This document shows, piece after piece, positions 51,321 through 64,000 of a stretch of 64,000 bases of DNA. The notes beneath the pieces are model-generated. The model was given only the letters and a program-made list of their open reading frames with translations, was not told the DNA's origin and did no database searches. Every line of letters starts with the position of its first letter. Within the stretch, counting starts at the first letter, position 1. The position numbers were made by a program, and so were the translations under genes. This stretch comes from Erythrobacter sp. GTDB taxonomy: Bacteria > Pseudomonadota > Alphaproteobacteria > Sphingomonadales > Sphingomonadaceae. The stretch covers positions 1,742,818-1,806,817 of the forward strand of contig CP073261.1 in the NCBI GenBank assembly GCA_019739335.1. The letters are read 5' to 3'.

Positions 51321-52334
51321 GTGACAGATTCCCCGATCCTGACCCTACGCGGCGTAACGCGTCGTTACGGCGCGCACGAAGTCGTCAGTGCAGCCAGCTT
51401 TGCGCTCCAGCCGGGACGGATTGCCTGCCTGCTCGGTCCGTCCGGTTGCGGCAAGAGTACGATCCTGCGTATGGTAGCCGGGCTCGAGCCCGTGGATGCG
51501 GGTGAAATCGAAATATCCGGCCATGTGGTTTCCGGTCCGGGCAGCACGCTTTCTCCCGAACGGCGCGGAGTGGGGCTGGTGTTCCAGGACAATGCCCTTT
51601 TCCCCCATCTGAACGTGCGCGAAAATGTCGGGTTCGGAATCCGGTCACTTGGCAAGCAGGCGCGTGACGCGCTGGTACAGGAATTGCTAACGCGGCTTCA
51701 TGTCGAGCATCTGGCCGAACAATGGCCGCATACCCTTTCCGGCGGAGAGCAGCAGCGGGTCGCGATCGCGCGGGCCCTGGCGAGAGAGCCGGTGCTGCTG
51801 CTGCTGGATGAACCGTTTTCGGGCCTTGATGGCCATTTGCGCGCGCAAATCCGGCGCTCGCTGATGGCTGATCTGCAAGCTGTGGGAACGACCGTGCTGA
51901 TCGTCACCCACGATCCCGAAGAAGCGATGCTACTTGCCGACGATCTGATCCTGATGGCAGACGGCAAGATCCTGCAAACCGGGTCACCCGCCGAGTGTTA
52001 CGACAGGCCGGCATCGCTGGTGGCCGCGCGGCTGCTGGGCGATGCGTTCGAGATATCGGCGGACGCTGGCGCTGCACTCCTGCCCGGCGCCGATTCCCGG
52101 TTCGGCGCAGTTGCAGCCGATGTGCCGCTGATCCTGCGTTCGAAGGATTTGGTGATCGCCGCGGAAGGGCTGCCTGCCACAGTCATGGCCGTCCGCAGAA
52201 TCGGGCGTGAAACGCTGGCCAGTGTCGAAAGCGCCGTGGGTGAAATCGCGTTAAGGTCGGAAACAGCCGGGCTGTCGGCGGGGCAGGTCATCCACCTGCA
52301 ATTGCGCAATGACGTTGCGTCCTATTCTGCGTAG
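51321..52334 (+). CDS. Ferric iron ABC transporter ATPase, FbpC/FutC type
   Basis: The 337-residue ATPase has Walker A GPSGCGKST, Q-loop FQDNALFPH, signature LSGGEQQRVAIARAL, Walker B LLLLDEPFSGLD and a switch His in VTHDPEEAM. A TOBE-like C-terminal domain follows (from about residue 250), as in FbpC. GTG start, 9 bp after the permease. The 3' end overlaps the convergent TetR gene by 13 bp. Confidence 0.9.
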   Translation: MTDSPILTLRGVTRRYGAHEVVSAASFALQPGRIACLLGPSGCGKSTILRMVAGLEPVDAGEIEISGHVVSGPGSTLSPERRGVGLVFQDNALFPHLNVRENVGFGIRSLGKQARDALVQELLTRLHVEHLAEQWPHTLSGGEQQRVAIARALAREPVLLLLDEPFSGLDGHLRAQIRRSLMADLQAVGTTVLIVTHDPEEAMLLADDLILMADGKILQTGSPAECYDRPASLVAARLLGDAFEISADAGAALLPGADSRFGAVAADVPLILRSKDLVIAAEGLPATVMAVRRIGRETLASVESAVGEIALRSETAGLSAGQVIHLQLRNDVASYSA

Positions 52335-52993
52335 CGCAGGTAAGCGTAGGCCATCTTCGCCAATTCCTTCTGCATCACTTCCCACACATCCTCGTCACCC
52401 GATTCGGGAGTCGAGCCGAGGCCGAACTGGCGGGCAATGGTGGCGAAGACGATTTGCATCACAGCATGGGCCTTCTCGCGCGGATCGCTGCCGGCGATTT
52501 CGTCCTTGAATTGCAGGATCGCGTCCACCGCCATTGTCATGGATCGGCGTGCGGTTTCCTTGCCCGGCCCGGAGACTGCCGGATCGACACTGGCGCGCTG
52601 CATGATCGCGCGCAGGATACGGGCATGCTCCTCGAGGTTGCGGCTGTAGCGATCGATGAATCGGGTGAGGAACGTGCGCAAATCCTGCTGGTCCTGCAAA
52701 ACTTCCGCAACCATCGCTTCTTCCGTTGCGATCACGTCTTCCAGTTCGCGGGCGATCACGGCGTGCAGCAGCCGGTCCTTGCTCTGGAAGCGCAGGTAGA
52801 TCGAGCCGATCGAGACCGCGCCCAGGTCGCTGACATCCTGAAGGGTGAAATCCTCGCTCCCGCGTTCGAGCATCAGCGCCTTGGTGGCATCGAGCATCCT
52901 TTCATAGGAGGCGAGGCTGCGACCCTGCAGCGGCTTCGTGCTGATCGCATTGGTGGCGAGCGCTTCGGTTTCAGGCCCGAGGGTGGTTGACAT
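52322..52993 (-). CDS. TetR-family repressor, likely of glycoside regulon
   Basis: The 223-residue protein has an N-terminal extension, then the TetR DNA-binding domain (YERMLDATKALMLERGSEDFTLQDVSDLGAVSIGSIYLRFQSKDRLLHAV, about residues 30-80) and a helical ligand domain. It is divergent from the flavin monooxygenase gene, and between them lies the operator TAGAA-N6-TTCTA, which recurs at two more promoters in the next 6 kb. I infer that it represses all of them and itself, released by an aromatic or glycoside ligand. The ATG overlaps a possible -35 box of the opposite promoter. Confidence 0.9.
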   Translation of the reverse strand: MSTTLGPETEALATNAISTKPLQGRSLASYERMLDATKALMLERGSEDFTLQDVSDLGAVSIGSIYLRFQSKDRLLHAVIARELEDVIATEEAMVAEVLQDQQDLRTFLTRFIDRYSRNLEEHARILRAIMQRASVDPAVSGPGKETARRSMTMAVDAILQFKDEIAGSDPREKAHAVMQIVFATIARQFGLGSTPESGDEDVWEVMQKELAKMAYAYLRYAE

Positions 52994-53017
52994 GTGGGTT
53001 GTTGAGTCTAATAAAAC

Positions 53018-53033
53018 TAGAACGTCAATTCTA
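53018..53033. promoter_or_regulatory. TetR operator, site 1 (tetR-monooxygenase)
   Basis: TAGAACGTCAATTCTA is a perfect TAGAA-N6-TTCTA palindrome between the divergent tetR and flavin monooxygenase genes. TTGACA (52987-52992) and a weak -10-like TAAAAC just before the site may drive the plus-strand gene. Confidence 0.7.
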
Positions 53034-53107
53034 ATTGATGCTGGACATCCGGTTTTAGTCCGCGCGGCGCGCTGCGGAAGGGGCCGGAGCGGGAGAGGGA
53101 AGTTTCC

Positions 53108-54205
53108 ATGCGTTTTTCAGTGTTTCTCAATGCGCGTTCGATGCGGCCGGAGGAAGACCGGCAGCTGATGCACGACCTTGAGTCGCATGCGCTGCTGGCG
53201 GGGAGCAAGGGCTTCTCGGCGATCTTCATGCCTGATCACCACTTCAACGGCTATATGCCGCTGGCGAGCGACAGCTTCATCTTCGCCGCCTTCCTGGCCG
53301 CGAAAATGCCGCACATTCATTTCGGCTTCTCGGTCGTCTCGGTCCCGCTGCACCATCCGGTGCGCTTCGTGGAGCGGATCAACTTGCTTGATCAGCTGAC
53401 TGACGGCAAGCTGCTGGTCGGCGTGGGCAGCGGCACCACGCCGGAGGAGATGATCGGCTTTGGCGTGACCTATGCCGAATCGAAGGACATTTCGGATCGC
53501 AATCTGGATCTGGCCGAGCAGCTCTGGGCCAAGGGAATGGAAGATCCGGCGGTGGAAATCGACAACGGCCCGCACAAGGGCCGCGTGCTCCAGCGGATCG
53601 CTCCGGCCAGCTATACCCCGCGCCACGCCCCGCTGATGCCAGTGGCGATGAAGGAAGCGAGCACCCGCCGTGCGGCGGAGAACGGCTGGCCCGCTTTCAT
53701 CCCCGCCTTCACTCCGCCGCAGATCGGCGGGACCGAACCGTTCAAGCACGTGAGCAAGTATTTCGATGCCTACCGCACCGCGCTCGATGCCGCCGGGCAT
53801 GACGAGGCAACGCGGGCCAAGGCGCTCGACTGGACCACCCACACCTACCAGTGCGTCCACGTGGCCGAGAGCGACGACCAGGCGCGCGAGGAACTGGAAG
53901 TGATCCTGCGCGCCTATCAGGATGCAGTGGAACGCGAGGCCGAATTCAACGCCCGCGCCGAAAGCGACAGCGCCAACACCAAGACCGACCGTACGCCCGA
54001 TGCGCTGAGCGAGGATTGGATCGGCACCTGGTGTCTTTACGGTTCGCCTGAAACGGTGATTGAGCATCTGCAACCCTACAAGGAGCTGGGCATCGGCAAC
54101 GTGCTGTGCGGCACCACCACCGGACCGCTGACCCCCGAACGGCTGCGGCTGGGCAACCAGACGCTCGACCTGCTGGCGCAGCACGTGCTCCCGGCGCTGG
54201 CCTGA
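53108..54205 (+). CDS. LLM-class flavin-dependent monooxygenase
   Basis: The 365-residue protein is a luciferase-like TIM barrel: MRFSVFLNARSMRPEEDRQ, FMPDHHFNGYMPLASDS, FGFSVVSVPLHHPVRFVERINLLDQLTDGKLLVGVGSGTTPEEMIGFG and the C-terminal GSPETVIEHLQPYKELGIGNVL. It uses reduced flavin to oxidise a substrate, often an aromatic or ketone. The flavin reductase follows with a TGATG overlap, so the two make a two-component monooxygenase. The TetR operator lies 74 bp upstream. Confidence 0.88.
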   Translation: MRFSVFLNARSMRPEEDRQLMHDLESHALLAGSKGFSAIFMPDHHFNGYMPLASDSFIFAAFLAAKMPHIHFGFSVVSVPLHHPVRFVERINLLDQLTDGKLLVGVGSGTTPEEMIGFGVTYAESKDISDRNLDLAEQLWAKGMEDPAVEIDNGPHKGRVLQRIAPASYTPRHAPLMPVAMKEASTRRAAENGWPAFIPAFTPPQIGGTEPFKHVSKYFDAYRTALDAAGHDEATRAKALDWTTHTYQCVHVAESDDQAREELEVILRAYQDAVEREAEFNARAESDSANTKTDRTPDALSEDWIGTWCLYGSPETVIEHLQPYKELGIGNVLCGTTTGPLTPERLRLGNQTLDLLAQHVLPALA

Positions 54206-54795
54206 TGGCTGGCACGGCCAAGCCGATGCCGCGCATCGTCGGGATCGGCGGCACCCAGCGGCCCGGATCGAGCAGCGAACTGCTGGTGAAGACGGTGCTC
54301 GACATCTGCGCCACCCACGGTGCGCAGACGCGCCTGTTCGGCGGGCAGGAACTGGCCGCACTACCCCATTACGATCCGTACCGGCGCGACCGCACGGCGG
54401 GCGAAAGCGAACTGATCGAAGCGGTGCGCGCAGCCGACGGCATCATTATCGCATCCCCCAGCTATCACGGCGGCGTATCCGGCGTGATCAAGAACGCGAT
54501 CGACCTGCTGGAAGAGCTGCGGCAGGATCCGCGCCCCTATTTCGACGGGCGGCCCGTTGGCCTGCTGGTCTCTGCCTCCGGTTGGCAGGCGGGCGGAGTC
54601 ACCCTCGCTGCACTACGCGGGATCGTCCATGCCATGCGCGGCTGGCCCACACCGATGGGGATCGCCATCAACACGCTGGAGCAAAAGCCTTTCGATGCCG
54701 ACGGACGTTTGGTGGACGACAAGCTTGGCGTCCAGCTTGATGCAATGGCGCAACAGTTGGCGATCGGCTGTTTGGGCCTGAGCCAGCGGCATTGA
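54205..54795 (+). CDS. NADPH-dependent FMN reductase
   Basis: The 196-residue protein is a flavodoxin-fold reductase: RIVGIGGTQRPGSSSELLVKTVLDICATHGAQ with the phosphate-binding loop, GIIIASPSYHGGVSGVIKNAIDLLEELRQDPRPYFDGRPVGLL and SASGWQAGGVTLAALRGIVHAMRGWPTPMG. It most likely supplies reduced FMN to the monooxygenase. I chose the ATG that overlaps the preceding stop (TGATG). Confidence 0.88.
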   Translation: MAGTAKPMPRIVGIGGTQRPGSSSELLVKTVLDICATHGAQTRLFGGQELAALPHYDPYRRDRTAGESELIEAVRAADGIIIASPSYHGGVSGVIKNAIDLLEELRQDPRPYFDGRPVGLLVSASGWQAGGVTLAALRGIVHAMRGWPTPMGIAINTLEQKPFDADGRLVDDKLGVQLDAMAQQLAIGCLGLSQRH

Positions 54796-54830
54796 CTCAG
54801 ATCAAAAGCAAAATTATAACTCGCATTCTA
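54792..54830 (+). promoter_or_regulatory. Promoter and TetR operator, site 2 (TonB receptor)
   Basis: TTGACT is 17 bp before TATAAC, an almost ideal sigma-70 promoter. The operator variant TATAA-CTCGCA-TTCTA (54815-54830) overlaps the -10 box, so a bound repressor would block polymerase. The flanks (TTCTAAT) match the other sites. It lies 47 bp before the TonB receptor start. Confidence 0.65.
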
Positions 54831-54876
54831 ATATGGTTTCACGCACGACAGAGGTCGGCGTTTTCGGGAGGGAAAT

Positions 54877-57234
54877 ATGAAAAGGCTCAAGAGCAAAACC
54901 GTGTGGTTCCTGGGTTGCGCGGCGCTGGCCGTAGCGGCCCCCGCTGCGGCGCAGGACGCAGAAGGCCAGGCGGAAGAAAACGTCATCCTGGTTACCGCGC
55001 AGAACCGCGCGCAAAACGTGCAGGATGTGCCGATCGCGATGGATGTGGTCGGTGCCGACGAGCTCGCGGCTGCCGGATTCAACAGCGCCAACGATTTGTC
55101 CGCCATCTCGCCTGCCGTGCAGGTGAACCAGGATCAGGGCACGGTGAAGATCACCTTGCGTGGGATCGGCACCAACTCCAACGATGAATCGCAGGATACC
55201 TCGGTGGTCGCCAATATCGACGGCGAATACATCAACCGACCCAACGTTCTGGGCGTTGCCCTGTTCGATCTGGACCGGGTGGAAGTGCTGCGCGGGCCGC
55301 AGGGCACCCTCTATGGCCGTAACTCGACCGCCGGTGCAATCAACTTCATCACCCGTCGCCCGAGCGGCGAATTCGGCTTCAACGCCTCGGTCTCCTACGG
55401 AAATTACAACCACCTGCGCTTCGATGCCGGGATCGACATTCCGGTGGCCGATATGGGCGGCCTGCGCTTCTCCGGCTTTTATGAAGACCGCGATGGCTAT
55501 GTCGACCACCCGGCGGGCTACGGCTTCGGCCCGTTCCCGGCCTTTGCCGGCGGCAGTTCGGATACGAACACGACCGGCGGTGGACGGGCGACCCTGTTCC
55601 TCGAATCCGATGACGGCCTGACATTCCAGATCGCCGCAGAATATGCCGAGCGGGATTTCGTTCCGCAGGCCTTCGCCTTCGCCGATCTGAATGGCGCGGG
55701 CAACGGACCGACCGGCCCCGGCTGCAACGCGAACGGATACGAGCAGGTCGCTCCCGGCTATGCACCGCAGGTGCTGTGCATTCCTTCGCAGACCAACTTC
55801 CTCGATAGTCTCGATCGTGGCGAATACCCCTCGCCGGGTTACGGTCTCGGCGATATGGGCGATCAGACCTGGGCCGTGCGCGGCAGGCTCGCCTATGAAT
55901 TCAGCGAGGCGGCGACGCTCAGCTACATTGCCGGTATCCGCGGGTACGGCGTCGATCCTGACAGCTTCGTGACGCTTCCGGTGACGTACCGCAGCTACAA
56001 TTACGTCGACGACGTCGAAACCCAGAGCCACGAATTGCGCCTGAACGGCGAAATCGGCGGAATCGTCTACCAGGTCGGCGGTTTCTATTTCGACGAGCAA
56101 CAGTACAACGAAAGCGGCTTCGTGATCCCGCCGGGTGGCGGCGCGTTCCTCAGCTACTTCGGTCGCGATGTCGGCAGCGACAGCCTCTCGGGCTTCGGCC
56201 AGGTGGAAATTCCCCTGGGCGACACGCTCACCGCCATTGCCGGTGCACGTTACACCAGCAATTCGCGCGAGGCAGTCTATCAGAATGCTTCGGCCTTCGG
56301 CGCCGGACCGCCCGACCCGCACCTGTTCGGCAACGGCACGGACCGCAAGGACTTCGGCCAGATGCGCTACCTCAGCACGCTCAATCTCGCGAGCGAGGAT
56401 GAAAGGTTCACCTGGCAACTGGGCCTCAACTACGAGCCCACTCCCGATGTGCTGATCTTCGGCAAGGTTTCGACCGGCTTCAAGGGCGGTGGTTTCGACT
56501 CTATCGGGACCTACGATCCGGAAACCAACACCGCTTACGAAGTGGGCGGCAAGTTCACTTTCGGCGATCAGGGCCAATTCCAGCTCAACACCGGTGCATT
56601 CTATTATGACTATTCGGGGCTGCAGGTCTCGGTGCTGCTCGATACCGCTGTAGGCGGACAGACCTTCAACGCCGGTGCGGCAACGATTTGGGGGCTGGAA
56701 GCCGAGTTCGCTGCCGAGCTGGGCGAGAACACGCTGTTCGACCTTTCAGTGAACTACCTCAGTGCGGAATATGACGAGCTGTTCGCGCAGTTCAACGTGT
56801 TCTGCGTCGGCTGCGACTTGAACGGCATCGGTGATCTCGATCCCAACACGGCGGGCGTGCAATCGCCCAACTTCGCCGGCAACACCGCTCCGTTCTCGCC
56901 CGAATGGGTGATCCGTGCGGGGCTCCAGCACACCTTCGATCTGGGCAATGCCGGATCGCTGACGGCTGGTGTATCGACCACCTTCAAGAGCTCCTACTTC
57001 ACCGACTTCTATAACTACGCCGACGGCCAGCAGGACAGCTTCACCCAGACCGACGTGCGGCTGGACTGGCGTTCGGCAAGCGATGTCTTCGGTGTACAGC
57101 TCTACGCCCGCAACATCGAGAACGAACGCCCGCTGACCTACGGCAGCTTCGTTTCGGCGGGGCCGGACGATATCTACAACTGGCAGTTCGGCACCCCGAT
57201 GACCTACGGCGTGCGCCTGATGGTCGATTACTGA
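54877..57234 (+). CDS. TonB-dependent receptor of the glycoside regulon
   Basis: This 785-residue protein has a signal peptide (cut near AAAQDAEG), the plug (NVILVTAQNRAQNVQDVPIAMDVVGADELAAAGF, RGIGTNSNDES, LRGPQGTLYGRNSTAGAINFIT) and a 22-strand-type barrel ending with Tyr. It is a typical Sphingomonad receptor of the size used for small organic molecules. It has its own operator and promoter and a strong terminator, so it is expressed with, but apart from, the catabolic operon. It probably imports the glycoside. Confidence 0.93.
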   Translation: MKRLKSKTVWFLGCAALAVAAPAAAQDAEGQAEENVILVTAQNRAQNVQDVPIAMDVVGADELAAAGFNSANDLSAISPAVQVNQDQGTVKITLRGIGTNSNDESQDTSVVANIDGEYINRPNVLGVALFDLDRVEVLRGPQGTLYGRNSTAGAINFITRRPSGEFGFNASVSYGNYNHLRFDAGIDIPVADMGGLRFSGFYEDRDGYVDHPAGYGFGPFPAFAGGSSDTNTTGGGRATLFLESDDGLTFQIAAEYAERDFVPQAFAFADLNGAGNGPTGPGCNANGYEQVAPGYAPQVLCIPSQTNFLDSLDRGEYPSPGYGLGDMGDQTWAVRGRLAYEFSEAATLSYIAGIRGYGVDPDSFVTLPVTYRSYNYVDDVETQSHELRLNGEIGGIVYQVGGFYFDEQQYNESGFVIPPGGGAFLSYFGRDVGSDSLSGFGQVEIPLGDTLTAIAGARYTSNSREAVYQNASAFGAGPPDPHLFGNGTDRKDFGQMRYLSTLNLASEDERFTWQLGLNYEPTPDVLIFGKVSTGFKGGGFDSIGTYDPETNTAYEVGGKFTFGDQGQFQLNTGAFYYDYSGLQVSVLLDTAVGGQTFNAGAATIWGLEAEFAAELGENTLFDLSVNYLSAEYDELFAQFNVFCVGCDLNGIGDLDPNTAGVQSPNFAGNTAPFSPEWVIRAGLQHTFDLGNAGSLTAGVSTTFKSSYFTDFYNYADGQQDSFTQTDVRLDWRSASDVFGVQLYARNIENERPLTYGSFVSAGPDDIYNWQFGTPMTYGVRLMVDY

Positions 57235-57256
57235 GGCCCGATGGACCGATTGCGAG

Positions 57257-57288
57257 AAGGGCGGCCCGCTGTGGCCGCCCTTTTTTTT
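57257..57288 (+). terminator. Strong intrinsic terminator after the receptor
   Basis: AAGGGCGGCC and GGCCGCCCTT form a perfect 10-bp stem with a six-base loop, followed by a run of eight T. It is 22 bp after the receptor stop. Confidence 0.9.
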
Positions 57289-57309
57289 CGCACTACGAGG
57301 AATATGACA

Positions 57310-58275
57310 ATGCACTTCAACCGACGCATGATCCTGCGTGATGCCGCCTTGGGAGGTTTGCTGCTTGCCTGCCGGCAAGCGCTGCTCGCGAACCAGCGCA
57401 TTCCGCAGCGACCCTCCGCGCGCGTCATCGTCGACAATGATTTCGCCGGAGACCCTGATGGACTGGTGGGGCTGGCGCACCAGTTGCTTTCACCCAAGAC
57501 AGTCGTGCCGCTGATTACGGTGTCGGGGCTGGACCGGAATCTTGGCGGGGAAACCGGGAGCACGGTTGTTCCGGGCGCGGAGGCGGCAGCGGAAACGGTC
57601 CAGCGGCTTTCGCTGGACCATACCCCTCCCATCGCCAGCGGGCACGAACTGGGTGTGCGCGGGCAAGAGCCATCGGACGCCGCGCGCGCCATCGTGGCCG
57701 AAGCGATGCGCGAGGATGCCTTGCCGCTATACTTTTCCTGCGGCGGCCCGCTGACCAACCTTGCCGAAGCACTGGCGCTGGAACCCGCGATAACGGCGCG
57801 GATGACGCTGATCTGGATCGGCGGTGGCGGTTATCCCGATGGCGGATGGGAATACAATCTCTCCGCCGATGCCGACGCGGCGCGGCACGTTATCGAAAGC
57901 AGCGCCATGCCGGTGTGGCAAATCCCGCTACCCGCCTATCGGTTGATGCAGGTCTCGGTCGCGGAAATGGAAGCCGACATGATGCCGATTTCGGACTTTA
58001 CTCGCTGGCTTTATGCGCGCTTCACCAATCCCCCGGCGTTCTTCGATCTGGGCGGATCATGGCCAATGGGGGACAGCCCGGCGATCCTGCTGACGGCGAT
58101 CTCTGCCGAAAGCAGCCGCTACAGCGATCTCCCCGCGCGGCGGATCAATCCCGATCTCAGCTACGGTGAGGAAATACCCGGTCGCACGGTACGGGTGTTC
58201 GACGATCTCGACTTGCGGCTGACCTGGGCCGATTTCCTTGCCAAGCTACGCCTGCACGCGGCGCGGACGGGCTAG
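57310..58275 (+). CDS. Exported nucleoside-hydrolase-like protein
   Basis: The 321-residue protein has a twin-arginine-like signal (NRRMILRDAALGGLLLACRQ) and then the inosine-uridine nucleoside hydrolase fold. The N-terminal metal motif is altered: DNDFAGDPD (residues 42-50) in place of the usual DxDxGxDD. The middle LYFSCGGPLTNLAEALAL and WIGGGG are family-like. It should be periplasmic and hydrolyse an N- or possibly O-ribosyl or glycosyl bond; its real substrate is unknown. The ATG chosen has GAGGA eight bases upstream; an ATG two codons earlier is also possible. It follows the receptor terminator. Confidence 0.75.
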   Translation: MHFNRRMILRDAALGGLLLACRQALLANQRIPQRPSARVIVDNDFAGDPDGLVGLAHQLLSPKTVVPLITVSGLDRNLGGETGSTVVPGAEAAAETVQRLSLDHTPPIASGHELGVRGQEPSDAARAIVAEAMREDALPLYFSCGGPLTNLAEALALEPAITARMTLIWIGGGGYPDGGWEYNLSADADAARHVIESSAMPVWQIPLPAYRLMQVSVAEMEADMMPISDFTRWLYARFTNPPAFFDLGGSWPMGDSPAILLTAISAESSRYSDLPARRINPDLSYGEEIPGRTVRVFDDLDLRLTWADFLAKLRLHAARTG

Positions 58276-58281
58276 CGGGCG

Positions 58282-58689
58282 CTAGGTGGCCCGCCGCCGG
58301 TAAAGCCAGACGATTAAGCCGCACAGCGCCAGATACACCGCATTGGCAGGAAGCGCGTGGGCCTCGTCATGGGTGGCGTGGATCAAGGCGGCGGCAACGT
58401 GGTTCAGGGTGATCCAGATCGCCGCAAAATAGCCAATCCGGGCCAGCGGACGAAGGGCGAGGCCGAGCAGCATCACGCTCGCCGCCAGCACTTCCAGTAC
58501 GCCTACCATGCGCCCCAGCCAGACAGGCAGGTGCACCGTCCAGGCGCTGTTCTGGGCGAGAATTTCGATGGGCGAGAAGGCCTTGTGATAGCCCACGAAC
58601 AGCGAAAACCCGCCGACTGCGAGGACCAGCAGCGCCAGCAGCACGAAGCCGGGCCAGGGCAGTTGCCCGGTAAATCTTTCGCTTCGCAT
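58282..58689 (-). CDS. DoxX-like membrane protein
   Basis: This 135-residue protein has four membrane helices and DoxX/DoxD-like features: FSLFVGYHKAFSP, AWTVHLPVWLGRMVGVLEVLAASVMLLGLALRPLARIG and CGLIVWLYRRR. DoxX proteins are often linked to quinone or redox stress, though function is mostly unproven. It is divergent from the deglycosidase operon and shares the palindromic control region. Confidence 0.75.
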   Translation of the reverse strand: MRSERFTGQLPWPGFVLLALLVLAVGGFSLFVGYHKAFSPIEILAQNSAWTVHLPVWLGRMVGVLEVLAASVMLLGLALRPLARIGYFAAIWITLNHVAAALIHATHDEAHALPANAVYLALCGLIVWLYRRRAT

Positions 58690-58703
58690 CGCTTTCTCTC
58701 CCC

Positions 58704-58747
58704 TTGGCTCTTGACCTTGAGCCGCTTATAATAGAATGTCCGTTCTA
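58704..58747 (+). promoter_or_regulatory. Promoter and TetR operator, site 3 (deglycosidase operon)
   Basis: TTGGCT is 17 bp before a perfect TATAAT. The operator TAGAATGTCCGTTCTA (58732-58747) begins at the last base of the -10 box, so it covers the expected start of transcription. A perfect TTCTAATTAGAA (58743-58754) runs on from it, as a second overlapping palindrome. It lies between the divergent DoxX gene and the operon. Confidence 0.75.
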
Positions 58748-58840
58748 ATTAGAAAGCGGGATTCGCGCAAGCCATGCGAAATCCCTTGGGCAAGAGCGGG
58801 TGGCGTTTTGGCAGCCGCCGCATGATGGTGGGACAGGACA

Positions 58841-59848
58841 ATGGCAATCAAGCGGGGCGTCAGCCTCTATTCGTTCCAGAACGATACCTTTCAGCAGAAG
58901 ATGGATCTGGAGGACTGCATCCGCACCTGCGCCGAAATGGGCGCGCGGGGCATCGAGGTAATCGGGGAACAGACCTTCTGGGGCTGGCCTGAATGCGGCG
59001 TCGAGGATGCGGCGATCGACAACTGGCACCACCTGATCGCCAAGTACGACTGCGTCCCCGTCAGCCACGATTACATGCTCGATTACAAGCGCTACAAGGG
59101 CCGCATCATGCCGTTCGACGAGCAGGTGGCGAGCGTGCGCAACGATATCGATTTCGGCGCTCGGCTGGGCGTTCCCTACATCCGTTCGCTGGTCTCGATC
59201 GATCCCGACGTGCTGGTGGCCGCCGCGCCCTATGCCGAGGAAAAGGGCATCAAGCTGCTGACCGAAGTCCACGCGCCGCTGCACTTCGATCACCCGTGGA
59301 TCCTGCGCATGGCCGAGGCTTTCGAAAAGAGCGGTTCGCCCGCGCTCGGCTTCCTGCCCGACATGGGCATGTTCCTGCACGCTTTCCCGCCCGTCTGGCG
59401 CGCCAAGTTCGAGCGGATGGGCGTGCGCAAGGATGTGGCCGACTATATCGTGAAGGCCTACGAAGACCGCGTGCTGAGCGAATATGTGATCCTCGGCGTG
59501 CGTGAAATGGGCGGCGAGGGGCCGGCGCTGGCGATGGCCGAAACACTGCGTCACAATGCCGCCTTCGAACCCAAGCGGATGCTCGACCACATGGATCGCA
59601 TCCACAATATCCACGGCAAGTTCTATGAAATGACCGCCGACTATGTCGAGCCGTCGATCCCCTATGACCAGATCGTCGCAGTCCTCAATCAGGGAGGATA
59701 CGACGGCTACATCTGCTCCGAATACGAAGGCAACCGCTGGATCGAGGACTTCGAGGAGCCCGACAGCGTCGAGCAGGTGCGCCGCCAGCAGGTGATGCTC
59801 GCGCGGCTGCTGGGTGAGCCCGAACCCGCCATGCTGCAAGCCGCTTGA
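58841..59848 (+). CDS. C-glycoside deglycosidase alpha-like TIM-barrel subunit
   Basis: The 335-residue protein is a xylose-isomerase-like TIM barrel of the sugar-phosphate isomerase/epimerase superfamily. Likely metal and catalytic residues are Glu142 and His144 in TEVHAPLHFDHPW, Asp174 in FLPDMGMF, His255/His258 in RIHNIHGKF and Glu294/Glu296 in CSEYEG. The next gene is the matching small subunit, which is why I call it a C-glycoside deglycosidase alpha subunit rather than an isomerase. Known relatives cleave the C-C bond of 3-oxo-glycosides by beta-elimination. No signal peptide, so cytoplasmic. Action on O-glycosides is also possible. Confidence 0.8.
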   Translation: MAIKRGVSLYSFQNDTFQQKMDLEDCIRTCAEMGARGIEVIGEQTFWGWPECGVEDAAIDNWHHLIAKYDCVPVSHDYMLDYKRYKGRIMPFDEQVASVRNDIDFGARLGVPYIRSLVSIDPDVLVAAAPYAEEKGIKLLTEVHAPLHFDHPWILRMAEAFEKSGSPALGFLPDMGMFLHAFPPVWRAKFERMGVRKDVADYIVKAYEDRVLSEYVILGVREMGGEGPALAMAETLRHNAAFEPKRMLDHMDRIHNIHGKFYEMTADYVEPSIPYDQIVAVLNQGGYDGYICSEYEGNRWIEDFEEPDSVEQVRRQQVMLARLLGEPEPAMLQAA

Positions 59849-59861
59849 GAGGATACGGACC

Positions 59862-60239
59862 ATGATGGACAACAAGATGATCGTCGAGAACAGCCTCGAA
59901 AGCAGCGACAAAGGCTTCGCCTTCTACGGCCGCCTGCCCTATTATCGCGGGCTGGGCCTGTCGATGATCGAGGACATTGCGATCACCGCCGATGGCGAGC
60001 CGGTGCCGCGCGAGAATGTGCGGCTGCACCTGCACGGCAAGACCTACACCCTCGAGCAGATGGAAACGGTCTACGATGATCGCTGGAACTTCGGCGAGCA
60101 GGCCAAGATCATCGCCATGATGCCCGGCGGGCTGGCCCCCGGCGAGCACACGATCGAATATGCCGTGCGGATGCGGGTCTCGTACCTGCCCTTCGTGCCG
60201 ACCACGAAAGACGTGAAGCAGCTTTCCCTCGCGGCCTGA
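59862..60239 (+). CDS. C-glycoside deglycosidase beta-like subunit (DUF6379)
   Basis: This 125-residue protein matches the small subunit of C-glycoside deglycosidase (DUF6379): MIVENSLESSDKGFAFYGRLPYYRGLGLSMIEDIAITADG, GKTYTLEQMETVYDDRWNFGEQAKIIAM and GGLAPGEHTIEYAVRMRVSYLPF. It is all-beta and in known complexes pairs with the TIM barrel. The spacing of 13 bp to the alpha gene and one base to the GH3 gene shows tight co-expression. MMDNKMI is the start with GAGAGGA upstream. Confidence 0.85.
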   Translation: MMDNKMIVENSLESSDKGFAFYGRLPYYRGLGLSMIEDIAITADGEPVPRENVRLHLHGKTYTLEQMETVYDDRWNFGEQAKIIAMMPGGLAPGEHTIEYAVRMRVSYLPFVPTTKDVKQLSLAA

Positions 60240-60240
60240 C

Positions 60241-62628
60241 ATGGCGGACCTTTCCCTCGACCAGGCGGCCATGGTCACCGCCGGTGCCGCCATGTGGGCG
60301 AGCCACGCCGTGCCCCTCGCGGACATTCCCGCCTTCACCATGAGCGATGGCCCGATGGGCATTGCCAGCGGCAAGGTGGACGAGCGCGACATTGCCCGGC
60401 TCAGCCCCTGCGCTACATCGCTGGGGGCAAGCTGGAACGTCGATCTCGCCCGCCGTGTCGGCGCATTGGTGGGGCAGGAGGCGGCCCTGCGCGGGGTGGA
60501 TGCGGTGCTGGCGCCCAATCTCAACCTCGCGCGCAGTCCGTTGGCGGGAAGGGCGTTCGAGTATTTCTCGGAAGACCCGCTGCTGGCGGGCGTGCTGGGC
60601 GCGGCATGGATCACCGGCCTGCAGGCCAGCGGCACTGCCGCGATCACCAAGCACATGGTCTGCAACGACAGCGAGACCGCTCGCGACCACGTGGACGTGC
60701 AGGTCGATGAACGCACCTTGCGCGAAGTCTATCTGCTGCCGTTCGAATTCGCGGTTGAGGCGGGCAGTGCCGGGTTGATGGCGGCCTATAACCGGGTGAA
60801 CGGCGACTGGTGCTCGCAGCAGCACCATGTGCTGACCACCATCGTAAAGTCCGAATGGGGCTTCACTGGCGCGATCATGTCCGACTGGTTCGGCACCCAC
60901 GCTACGGCGCCGACTTTGGCAGCGGGGCTCGACCTCGAAATGCCGGGACCGGCGCGGTTCCTTGGCGGGAAGGCTGCTGGGGCAGTTGAGGCGGGCGAAC
61001 TGTCCGCCGAACGGGTGCGGGATGCGGCGGCGCGGGTTGCACGGCTGGCGCGTGCGGCGACAGGGGCGAAGGCTTCGCCTGCTCCTGATGCCGAAGTTGA
61101 GGCGCTATTGGTGGAAGCGGCGGCGGCGGGCATGGTGCTGCTGAAGAACGAGGGCGCATTGCTGCCGCTCGATCCGGCACGGATCGGCAAGCTGGCGGTG
61201 ATCGGCCCCAATGCTGCTGCGCCGTGCTTCCAGGGCGGGACTTTCGCCAAGATCTCCGTGCGGCCCGACCTGCCGACCCCAATCGACGCGATCCGGGCGC
61301 GCTTTGGCGGGCACTGCGAAGTCTTGTTCGCCCCCGGTGTCGATCCCGCACCGCGCCTGCCGTTTATGGACGTCGCCCCGGCGCATGCCATCGGCGATGG
61401 CTGCACGCGCGGGATGAGCGTGGACTATTTCGCCACGGCGGATTGCACCGGTGAACCGCTGACCCGCGAAACGCGCGACACCAATTCGCTCGTCTGGTTC
61501 ACCGGAATGCACGATCAGGCCGACTTTGCCTCGGGTGGCGGGATCCGGGCGTCGGGCATTTTCACCGCGCGGAAGGCGGGGTTGCACCATTTCCACCTCG
61601 GCGCGACCGGTGTCGCGCGGATGGCGGTGGACGGGCGCGAAATCGTCGCCACCACAGAATGCCCGCCGGGAGACACGATGGGCGTTCTCAAGGCCGGGGA
61701 CAGCCTCAGCGCCGGGCTGGAGCTGGCAGCAGGCCAGCAGGTGCTGGTCGAAGTGACCTTCGCCTTCCCGCCCGCGCGCGTCCACGGGCTGTGGTACGGC
61801 ATCCGCGAACCGGGCAGCCCCGCCGAACTGCTCGCGCAGGCCGAGCGAGTGGCGTCAGAGGCCGATGTGGTGGTGCTGGTCGTGGGCGAAACGTCGGACA
61901 GCTCGGTCGAAAGCAAGGACCGGCCCGATACGCTGCTCCCCGCCGGTCAGCTTGAACTGATCGCGCGGATCACTGCCGCCAATCCGCGCACCGCGATCGT
62001 CACCAATGTCGGCCATGCCTACGATTGCGCATGGGAAAACAGTGCCGCCGCGCACCTCGCCTGCTGGTACCCGGGGGAGGGTTTTGCCCTTGCGCTGGCC
62101 GATGTGCTGGCGGGAGAGCGCGAGCCTTCGGGGCGGCTGCCGGTGACGATTGCGCGCGACGAAGCCGACTATCCGGCGCTGGCGCTCGCGCCCGATGCCG
62201 ATGGCAAGCTGCCTTACATCGAGGGCACAAGGCTGGGTTATCGTGGGATTATCGCGGCGGGCAAGACCGCGCGCCATCCTCTCGGTTCGGGGCTGGGCTA
62301 TGCGCGGTTCGAGTGGTCCGATGCACAGGCTGAAGGCGATGGGGTGGCGGTCACGATAACGAACGTTTCCGACCGCGCAGGCACCGAGACGGTGCAGGTC
62401 TATCGCGACTTGCCCGAAACCACGCTGGTCGGCTTCGCAACAGCAACGCTTGCCCCCGGTGAGAGTGCGCGGGTAAGAATAGCCCTGCCGCGCCGCCGGT
62501 TCATGGTATGGAACGATGGCTGGGAACCGATCGCCGCAAGCATTCCGGTCCGCATCGCCCGGCATGGCGAAGATGCAGGCACCCCGCTTCACCTCGATGT
62601 AAACCAATTGCAGGAGTCCGGACTGTGA
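60241..62628 (+). CDS. GH3 beta-glycosidase with PA14 domain, cytoplasmic
   Basis: The 795-residue protein has a GH3 N-terminal barrel (TMSDGPMG, GRAFEYFSEDPLLAG, KHMVCND with the catalytic-site His/Cys/Asp) and the nucleophile Asp215 in IMSDWFG. Next comes the second GH3 domain with AGMVLLKNEGALLPLD, a PA14-like insert (about residues 400-535), VVGETSDSSVESKDRPD and a C-terminal fibronectin-like domain. It has no signal peptide, unlike most large GH3 enzymes, so it acts in the cytoplasm. It probably cleaves O-beta-glucosides. GTG of the next gene overlaps its stop (GTGA). Confidence 0.92.
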   Translation: MADLSLDQAAMVTAGAAMWASHAVPLADIPAFTMSDGPMGIASGKVDERDIARLSPCATSLGASWNVDLARRVGALVGQEAALRGVDAVLAPNLNLARSPLAGRAFEYFSEDPLLAGVLGAAWITGLQASGTAAITKHMVCNDSETARDHVDVQVDERTLREVYLLPFEFAVEAGSAGLMAAYNRVNGDWCSQQHHVLTTIVKSEWGFTGAIMSDWFGTHATAPTLAAGLDLEMPGPARFLGGKAAGAVEAGELSAERVRDAAARVARLARAATGAKASPAPDAEVEALLVEAAAAGMVLLKNEGALLPLDPARIGKLAVIGPNAAAPCFQGGTFAKISVRPDLPTPIDAIRARFGGHCEVLFAPGVDPAPRLPFMDVAPAHAIGDGCTRGMSVDYFATADCTGEPLTRETRDTNSLVWFTGMHDQADFASGGGIRASGIFTARKAGLHHFHLGATGVARMAVDGREIVATTECPPGDTMGVLKAGDSLSAGLELAAGQQVLVEVTFAFPPARVHGLWYGIREPGSPAELLAQAERVASEADVVVLVVGETSDSSVESKDRPDTLLPAGQLELIARITAANPRTAIVTNVGHAYDCAWENSAAAHLACWYPGEGFALALADVLAGEREPSGRLPVTIARDEADYPALALAPDADGKLPYIEGTRLGYRGIIAAGKTARHPLGSGLGYARFEWSDAQAEGDGVAVTITNVSDRAGTETVQVYRDLPETTLVGFATATLAPGESARVRIALPRRRFMVWNDGWEPIAASIPVRIARHGEDAGTPLHLDVNQLQESGL

Positions 62629-63215
62629 CCGCAACCGGCTGGAACCGCCGCGAATTCGTCCGCGCTGCGGCGCTGCTGGGGCTGGCGCTCGCCACGCCCG
62701 GCTGCGTCACCGCAGCCGCGCTCGATCCGGCGCAGGCCCCAAGCGAGGACGACCTGGCCTTCATCACCCGCATTTCCGACATGGTGATTCCCGCCACCGA
62801 CACTCCCGGCGCGGCAGAGGCTGACGTTGGCGCTTTCGTCCTGCTGGCGCTGGCGCATGGGCTGGACGGCGCGCGCGCACCGCTTGCTCCCAATGCGGTA
62901 TCGACCACCATACGCACCCACCTGCTCACCGATGGCAGCCTCGATCACCTGCGCTGGCTCCGCGCAATTCTGGGTGAAGACGCGACCGAAGAAAGCCTCG
63001 CCGCCCTCGATGCCGCCGCCTTTTCCGGCGATGCCGAGGCGCAACCGTGGAAGCTCCTCAAGGGCCTGATCCTCACCGGCTATTACACCTCGCGGATCGG
63101 CGGATCGCAGGAACTGGCCTACGCCCCGATCCCCGGCCGCTTCGATCCCATGGTCCCGGTCGGCCCCGAAACGCGCGCCTATTCGAATGAGTGGACCGGG
63201 GTGGAGTTCGGCTGA
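62625..63215 (+). CDS. Tat-exported gluconate 2-dehydrogenase subunit 3-like protein
   Basis: The 196-residue protein has a twin-arginine signal (NRREFVRAAALLGLALATPGC, with a Cys that could be lipidated) and a gluconate 2-dehydrogenase subunit 3-type domain (LAFITRISDMVIPATDTPGAAEADVGAFV ... TGYYTSRIGG). Such small subunits help export and mature the FAD-dependent GMC large subunit, encoded next. The GTG start overlaps the GH3 stop and the gene's own stop overlaps the next ATG (TGATG). Confidence 0.85.
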   Translation: MTATGWNRREFVRAAALLGLALATPGCVTAAALDPAQAPSEDDLAFITRISDMVIPATDTPGAAEADVGAFVLLALAHGLDGARAPLAPNAVSTTIRTHLLTDGSLDHLRWLRAILGEDATEESLAALDAAAFSGDAEAQPWKLLKGLILTGYYTSRIGGSQELAYAPIPGRFDPMVPVGPETRAYSNEWTGVEFG

Positions 63216-64000
63216 TGGAAGAGACCTACGATTTCGACGCCATCGTGGTCGGCTCCGGCATCACCGGCGGCTGGTCGGCCAAGCAATTGACCGAGGCGGG
63301 GCTGAAGGTCCTGCTGCTCGAACGCGGGCCGGATATTCCCCACGGCAGCGGCTACACCACCGAAAGCAAGGCCCCGTGGGACATGCCTTTTCGCGGCAAG
63401 GGCGATGCCGAATTGTACGCCGAACAATATCCGGTGCAGCGGCTCAACCGCCACTTCACCGAATTCACCCAGAACCATTTCGTCAACGATGCGCAAAATC
63501 CGTATCAGGTGGGCGAAGGCGCGTTCAACTGGTTCCGCAGCTACAATCTCGGCGGGCGCTCGCTTACCTGGGGGCGGCAGACCTATCGCTGGTCCGATTG
63601 GGATTTCGATGCCAACCGCCGCGATGGCCACGGCACCGACTGGCCGATCCGCTACGCCGATCTCGCGCCGTGGTACGATCTGGTAGAGGATTTCATCGGC
63701 GTATCGGGGTCCGCCGAGGGCCTGCCGCAATTGCCCGATGGCCGGTTCCAGCCACCGATGGCGCTGAACGCGGTCGAGGCCGACCTGCGCGAACGGATCT
63801 CGGCGCGCTGGCCCGAACGGCGGCTGATGGTGGGCCGCACCGCCAATCTCACCCAGGCCAAGCCGGGCCGCGCGCCGTGCCAGTATCGCGCGACCTGCCA
63901 GCGCGGCTGCTCGTTCGGCGCCTATTTCTCCACCCAGTCGAGCACGCTCCCCGCCGCGCGCGCGACGGGGAACCTGACGCTGGTGACCGATGCGGTGGTC
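63215..64000 (+). CDS. GMC oxidoreductase, glucoside 3-dehydrogenase-like (partial)
   Basis: The first 262 codons are in the window and the gene runs off the end. It has the FAD-binding FDAIVVGSGITGGWSAKQL, VLLLERGPD and the GMC segments FRSYNLGGRSLTWGRQTYRWSDWDF and DWPIRYADLAPWYDLVEDFIGVSG, then CQYRATCQRGCSFGAYFS. The pairing with a subunit 3-type partner is typical of glucoside 3-dehydrogenases, which oxidise the C3 hydroxyl of a glycosyl unit. That is the step needed before C-glycoside deglycosidase can act. C3 regiochemistry is inferred from context only. Confidence 0.88.
   Translation, partial: MEETYDFDAIVVGSGITGGWSAKQLTEAGLKVLLLERGPDIPHGSGYTTESKAPWDMPFRGKGDAELYAEQYPVQRLNRHFTEFTQNHFVNDAQNPYQVGEGAFNWFRSYNLGGRSLTWGRQTYRWSDWDFDANRRDGHGTDWPIRYADLAPWYDLVEDFIGVSGSAEGLPQLPDGRFQPPMALNAVEADLRERISARWPERRLMVGRTANLTQAKPGRAPCQYRATCQRGCSFGAYFSTQSSTLPAARATGNLTLVTDAVV

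Follow-up and report, generated by a model that had tools for sequence, protein, structure and literature searches.

In a 64-kb window of the genome of Erythrobacter sp. (contig CP073261.1, positions 1,742,818 to 1,806,817; complete genome 3,220,578 bp, 3.22 Mb), three palindromic sites of the form TAGAA-N6-TTCTA were located upstream of genes for glycoside uptake and breakdown. A TetR-family protein (gene at 52322-52993) very probably has these three sites as its operators and would repress the genes. The same combination of predicted repressor, operator and target genes is found in dozens of sphingomonad species. Plant polyphenol C-glycosides are hard to degrade, and the enzymes for their breakdown are known; no description of a regulator of C-glycoside deglycosidase clusters, or of this sphingomonad TetR, was found in the open-access literature searched, from which subscription papers are largely absent.

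The palindromes lay exactly where a sequence-only reading of the window had placed them (53018, 54815 and 58732), and the feature coordinates agreed with its assignment of the sites to the tetR/monooxygenase pair, the TonB receptor and the deglycosidase operon. Operator 1 (core TAGAACGTCAATTCTA, 53018-53033, spacer CGTCAA, an exact match; 22-bp form AACTAGAACGTCAATTCTAATT, 53015-53036) was situated between the tetR and monooxygenase genes, 24 bp from the tetR ATG and 74 bp from the monooxygenase ATG. Operator 2 (core TATAACTCGCATTCTA, 54815-54830, TATAA-CTCGCA-TTCTA, one mismatch; 22-bp form AATTATAACTCGCATTCTAATA, 54812-54833) lay 46 bp before the ATG of the TonB receptor. Operator 3 (core TAGAATGTCCGTTCTA, 58732-58747, spacer TGTCCG, an exact match; 22-bp form TAATAGAATGTCCGTTCTAATT, 58729-58750) was found 93 bp before the ATG of the deglycosidase alpha subunit and 42 bp from the start of a divergent DoxX-like gene. 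These were the sole matches with zero or one mismatch in the window. Read in a single orientation, they had the common form TAGAAT-N4-GTTCTA (or GTTATA), which suggested half-sites of six bases. The shared downstream AAT noted earlier arose from counting the last A of TTCTA twice; the bases that actually follow are ATT, ATA and ATT.

The motif was rare in the genome and was conserved among relatives. Only three exact copies of TAGAA-N6-TTCTA occurred in the 3.22 Mb, two of them within a 5.7-kb stretch. When the 22-bp consensus was scanned with up to three mismatches, six sites were obtained, of which four lay in the glycoside cluster and the three of the window scored highest. The genome scan proposed in the sequence-only reading thus returned a rare motif clustered at the glycoside genes, rather than one common across the genome without relation to them. 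A first comparative set of 20 tetR neighbourhoods (16-20 kb each, about 400 kb in total) contained 14 exact sites and 49 sites with at most one mismatch, compared with 0.07 and 0.9 in dinucleotide shuffles, and the exact sites had the N6 spacer only. The second set, 80 orthologue loci retrieved by a search of named genomes and overlapping the first set in species, had 60 exact sites with the six-base spacer, compared with 0-2 for each of the other spacers from 0 to 12. At least one site with no more than one mismatch was present in 69 of the 80 loci. Bases outside and inside the searched letters were also conserved (A at -2/-3, Y at 5 and the mirror positions), and these columns had played no role in the selection of sites. 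This footprint gave the 22-bp operator WATTAGAAY-N4-RTTCTAATW.

The proposed regulator (223 aa, minus strand) carried a TetR_N helix-turn-helix (HTH; PF00440, 35.1 bits, cutoff 24). Its AlphaFold model was an all-helical two-domain fold with a pLDDT of 93.1, and the top matches listed in a Foldseek search of the PDB were TetR-family regulators. By sequence, the protein belonged to the TetR family and the palindrome overlapped predicted promoter elements of its own and its target genes. Among the orthologues, the DNA-binding domain was more conserved than the ligand domain (majority-residue fraction 0.87 in the HTH versus 0.56). By their titles, all 80 orthologue loci came from Sphingomonadales or alphaproteobacterial metagenome-assembled genomes, and they included the genera Novosphingobium, Sphingomonas, Erythrobacter, Altererythrobacter, Croceicoccus, Blastomonas and Sphingobium. 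Many relatives had the site in front of tetR itself, at a distance of 40-47 bp; in several, the orthologous site was TTAGAATTGACGTTCT, 40-43 bp from the gene.

The repressor, the site and the deglycosidase occurred together. Among 40 genomes of the genus, the TetR was present in six and the deglycosidase in five, all of which had the TetR (5 of 6 versus 0 of 34 genomes lacking it; Fisher p 9e-6, uncorrected for kinship). The 22-bp site, with at most two mismatches, was found 26 times in the six TetR-positive genomes and 7 times in the 34 TetR-negative ones. In the family sample, in which 22 of 399 genomes encoded a TetR orthologue, exact TAGAAY-N4-RTTCTA was present in 11 of the 22 positive genomes versus 27 of the 377 negative ones (p 5e-7, likewise uncorrected for kinship). 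The 80 loci held 136 sites. For 107 of these, a gene whose family was represented in the window cluster started no more than 300 bp away. The families that bore sites were the deglycosidase alpha subunit (29), the TonB receptor (28), tetR (24), major facilitator superfamily (MFS) transporters (22), the LLM-class monooxygenase (14) and DoxX (11). The earlier suggestion that the repressor is linked to a coherent glycoside pathway gains support from this co-occurrence of motif, TetR orthologue and target genes across Sphingomonadales.

Several observations weighed against assigning the sites to this protein. Eleven of the 80 orthologue loci had no site with at most one mismatch within the available DNA of the locus. 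Near matches (at most one mismatch) were also raised at spacers 1, 7 and 12 (24, 37 and 52 in the 80 loci); exact matches at these spacers were not, and the same coding positions were perhaps counted across many homologues. Moreover, divergent TetR genes adjoined exact TAGAAY-N4-RTTCTA in other species (loci L068, L070, L077, L062, L063 and L076). The operator type was therefore common to several TetR lineages, and the regulator cannot be told from the motif without its context. The operators could thus be real but serve chiefly a different TetR-family protein encoded in this genome, with the linked TetR a bystander or minor partner, the more so as related TetR proteins often have half-sites in common. 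We consider this improbable, since the number of sites in the genus tracked this TetR clade, the site preceded tetR itself in many species, and the DNA between the sites of the window showed no further regulator gene. As a separate observation, one genome without this TetR (contig G243:C5, loci L099-L101) contained about 10 sites with at most one mismatch over 55 kb. This stretch held a different TetR-like gene (L099:3268-3993) together with acyl-CoA dehydrogenase-like, Rieske and TonB genes, and its sites seemingly belong to another regulon with a similar palindrome.

The position of the sites relative to promoter elements pointed to repression by the linked TetR protein. Operator 2 overlapped the -10 box TATAAC (54815), separated by a 17-bp spacer from the -35 box TTGACT at 54792; the orthologous TonB promoters carried the site as well, and in many of them TTGAC lay 16-21 nt upstream, matching TTGACT at 54792. 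At site 3, TTGGCT (58704) and TATAAT (58727) were also 17 bp apart. Both spacings in the sequence-only reading were thus correct; the -35 box at site 3 that was conserved in relatives, however, was not TTGGCT but TTGACC (58711-58716, plus strand), 15 nt before TAGAAT. Of 29 orthologous deglycosidase promoters, 28 had TTGAC at a fixed distance of 14-15 nt upstream of TAGAA. On the tetR strand, the inner bases of operator 1 and of the site in several relatives read TTGACG, which may be the -35 box of tetR. A bound dimer would hinder the polymerase in all cases, which makes repression the likely mode. Activation is known for some TetR-family proteins as a matter of general knowledge, and the protein could be an activator or a bidirectional regulator; this is quite improbable, as the operators of the deglycosidase and TonB promoters lie over the -10 region, with a good -35 TTGAC a short distance upstream, which is a blocking geometry. 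That the matches are merely AT-rich promoter sequence, palindromic by chance, is hardly credible: sites 2 and 3 do overlap TATAA sequences and promoters are AT-rich in this GC-rich genome, but this reading was rejected by the spacer controls, in which only N6 was enriched, by the shuffles, which yielded nearly no sites, and by the conservation of both half-sites with symmetric flanks.

From the sites and their context we infer binding by this TetR, repression rather than activation, and the kind of ligand. The ligand-free TetR dimer, or a pair of dimers, probably binds the 22-bp palindrome (A)ATTAGAAY-N4-RTTCTAAT(T). It would then cover the -10 region at the TonB-receptor and deglycosidase promoters and a possible -35 box at its own promoter, and this occupancy would block RNA polymerase. 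The protein would leave the DNA on binding its ligand, which is probably a plant glycoside, the corresponding aglycone or an intermediate in 3-keto form. Release would switch on outer-membrane uptake, inner-membrane transport, C3 oxidation, the breaking of the glycosidic bond by beta-elimination or hydrolysis, and oxidation of the aglycone. In a broader form, held with less confidence, the protein may well be a dedicated repressor of oxidative (3-keto, beta-elimination) catabolism of C- and O-glycosides across Sphingomonadales, acting at linked and unlinked loci, among them a second TonB receptor gene next to one for an alpha-L-rhamnosidase, and responding to a plant polyphenol in the form of a glycoside, an aglycone or a 3-keto product. 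The operator, the repressor clade and the conserved targets lead to testable predictions in dozens of species. The regulon also points to genes that would act together, such as those of the deglycosidase, the flavin monooxygenase and a Rieske oxygenase, and it could serve to identify the inducing substrate or as the basis of a sensor for that compound.

The regulon exceeds the three sites of the window. A fourth cluster site, degenerate but conserved, was located at 1811888-1811909 of the genome, about 5 kb to the right of the window, and adds a divergent pair of MFS genes. Beyond it, on the minus strand, were genes for an alpha/beta hydrolase and then a DUF1080 protein (3-keto-disaccharide hydrolase). 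In close relatives the same genes each had their own site, including a separate one before the operon of the gluconate-dehydrogenase subunit and the GMC oxidoreductase, and a degenerate site was again present between two MFS genes. In the window, GH3, subunit 3 and GMC are consecutive genes whose ends overlap, so that the latter two would not need a site of their own. A further site (226174-226195), 1.57 Mb from the window, was directly upstream of a second TonB receptor gene, which had a GH106 alpha-L-rhamnosidase gene before it and a sulfatase gene after it. In the genome G380 the orthologous receptor was about 26 kb from tetR and had a one-mismatch site at the same place. No site of this type was found in the TetR-negative genomes that have an orthologous receptor, or in the TetR-positive genome G411. 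The unlinked second receptor probably belongs to the regulon. The sixth site (1011057-1011078, two mismatches) was near open reading frames (ORFs) without confident names and was left out. Second clusters with a paralogue of deglycosidase alpha, about 30% identical to that of the window, were also seen in close relatives, with the operator present (L214 near 4180, L216 near 4750 and L219 near 6310).

The closest known operator was that of KstR of Mycobacterium, TAGAAC-N2-GTTCTA, a 14-bp palindrome that partly overlaps the -10 region (PMC1995591). KstR has the same fold and half-site, controls its own gene as part of a catabolic regulon, and was among the PDB sequence matches of the window TetR (E 5e-5). 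The half-sites are spaced differently, however: N4 separates TAGAAY and RTTCTA here (16-bp core), two bases more than in KstR, and KstR represses cholesterol catabolism through steroid genes whereas the targets here are glycoside genes. Identity with KstR was rejected (NCBIfam KstR model, 28.6 bits versus a cutoff of 280), as was the KstR spacing, since TAGAA-N4-TTCTA had no exact match and four matches with at most one mismatch in the 80 loci. PheR of Sphingobium, another sphingomonad, is likewise a single repressor that affects both TonB receptors and genes of catabolism (PMC13273656), but it belongs to the IclR family, with a GCAACG-core operator and another substrate. In the accessible part of a survey of 33 Proteobacteria regulons, the TetR members included FabR, FadP, LiuQ, PsrA and RutR, none of these with glycoside targets (PMC5343134), and the TetR clusters discussed in a transcriptome paper on Novosphingobium MBES04 concern efflux, not the gene set of the window.

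As for the enzymes, the dgp/dfg and car clusters for C-glycoside deglycosylation in gut and soil bacteria have homologous alpha and beta subunits with the catalytic His and Glu kept and an FAD oxidoreductase, according to the available portion of PMC8563793, in which no regulator of these clusters is described. Unlike them, the sphingomonad cluster adds a TonB receptor, a flavin monooxygenase, GH3, gluconate-dehydrogenase subunit 3 and Rieske genes. The dehydrogenase parts encoded in the window are presumably related to the Lac-type 3-dehydrogenase of Caulobacter. The pairing of a GMC-like enzyme with gluconate-dehydrogenase subunit 3 is common to both systems, as is a DUF1080 3-keto-disaccharide hydrolase, which acts with the Lac-type 3-dehydrogenase in the 3-ketoglycoside pathway of Caulobacter (PMC9007349). 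The Caulobacter pathway serves lactose and some other glycosides, whereas the cluster here contains a C-glycoside deglycosidase pair.

The alpha subunit of this pair (58841-59848, plus strand), a TIM barrel, had 8qvc_A as its nearest solved chain (362 bits) and also matched the alpha chain of 7bvr; its His144 and Glu296 aligned with the catalytic His143 and Glu301 of PuCGD. The beta-subunit gene (59862-60239, plus strand; Pfam CGDB, 120.8 bits; matches to 8qvc_B and DgpB) followed after a gap of 13 bp. The pair is predicted to cleave 3-keto C-glycosides. Related enzymes split 3-keto C- and O-glycosides by beta-elimination, and 3-keto O-glycosides are among the substrates of PuCGE (PMC10628242); the pair may therefore act naturally on a C- or an O-glycoside.

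The remaining genes of the operon, all on the plus strand, encoded a GH3 beta-glucosidase-like hydrolase (60241-62628; Pfam GH3 N and C domains), a gluconate 2-dehydrogenase subunit 3-like protein (62625-63215; Pfam Gluconate_2-dh3, start revised by inspection) whose gene overlapped the GH3 stop, and a FAD-dependent GMC-like oxidoreductase (63215-64000, continuing to 64903 past the window; Pfam FAD-binding matches to the partial protein). A VanA-type Rieske oxygenase gene came next, beyond the window, and orthologues of the GMC-like and Rieske genes were present in the same clusters of relatives. Upstream on the plus strand were an LLM-class flavin-dependent monooxygenase (53108-54205; Pfam Bac_luciferase, 128 bits), a NAD(P)H-dependent FMN reductase as its presumed flavin partner (54205-54795; Pfam FMN_red) and the TonB-dependent receptor (54877-57234; Pfam Plug and beta-barrel). 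The GMC-like oxidoreductase, subunit 3, GH3, DUF1080, the Rieske oxygenase and the monooxygenase/reductase pair are consistent with a pathway that starts from the glycoside and ends at the oxidised aglycone, with a step order that we infer. The DoxX-like membrane protein divergent from operator 3 was encoded at 58282-58689 (minus strand; Pfam DoxX_2). The terminator that had been proposed to separate the gene sets proved to be a genuine intrinsic one after the TonB receptor gene (57256-57288, plus strand), with a GC stem followed by T8 (-22.3 kcal/mol, z -3.6). No operator of its own was found in the window for the nucleoside-hydrolase-like gene (57241-58275, plus strand; Pfam IU_nuc_hydro). 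As listed, this ORF began upstream of the terminator; its true start is probably a later ATG, past the terminator.

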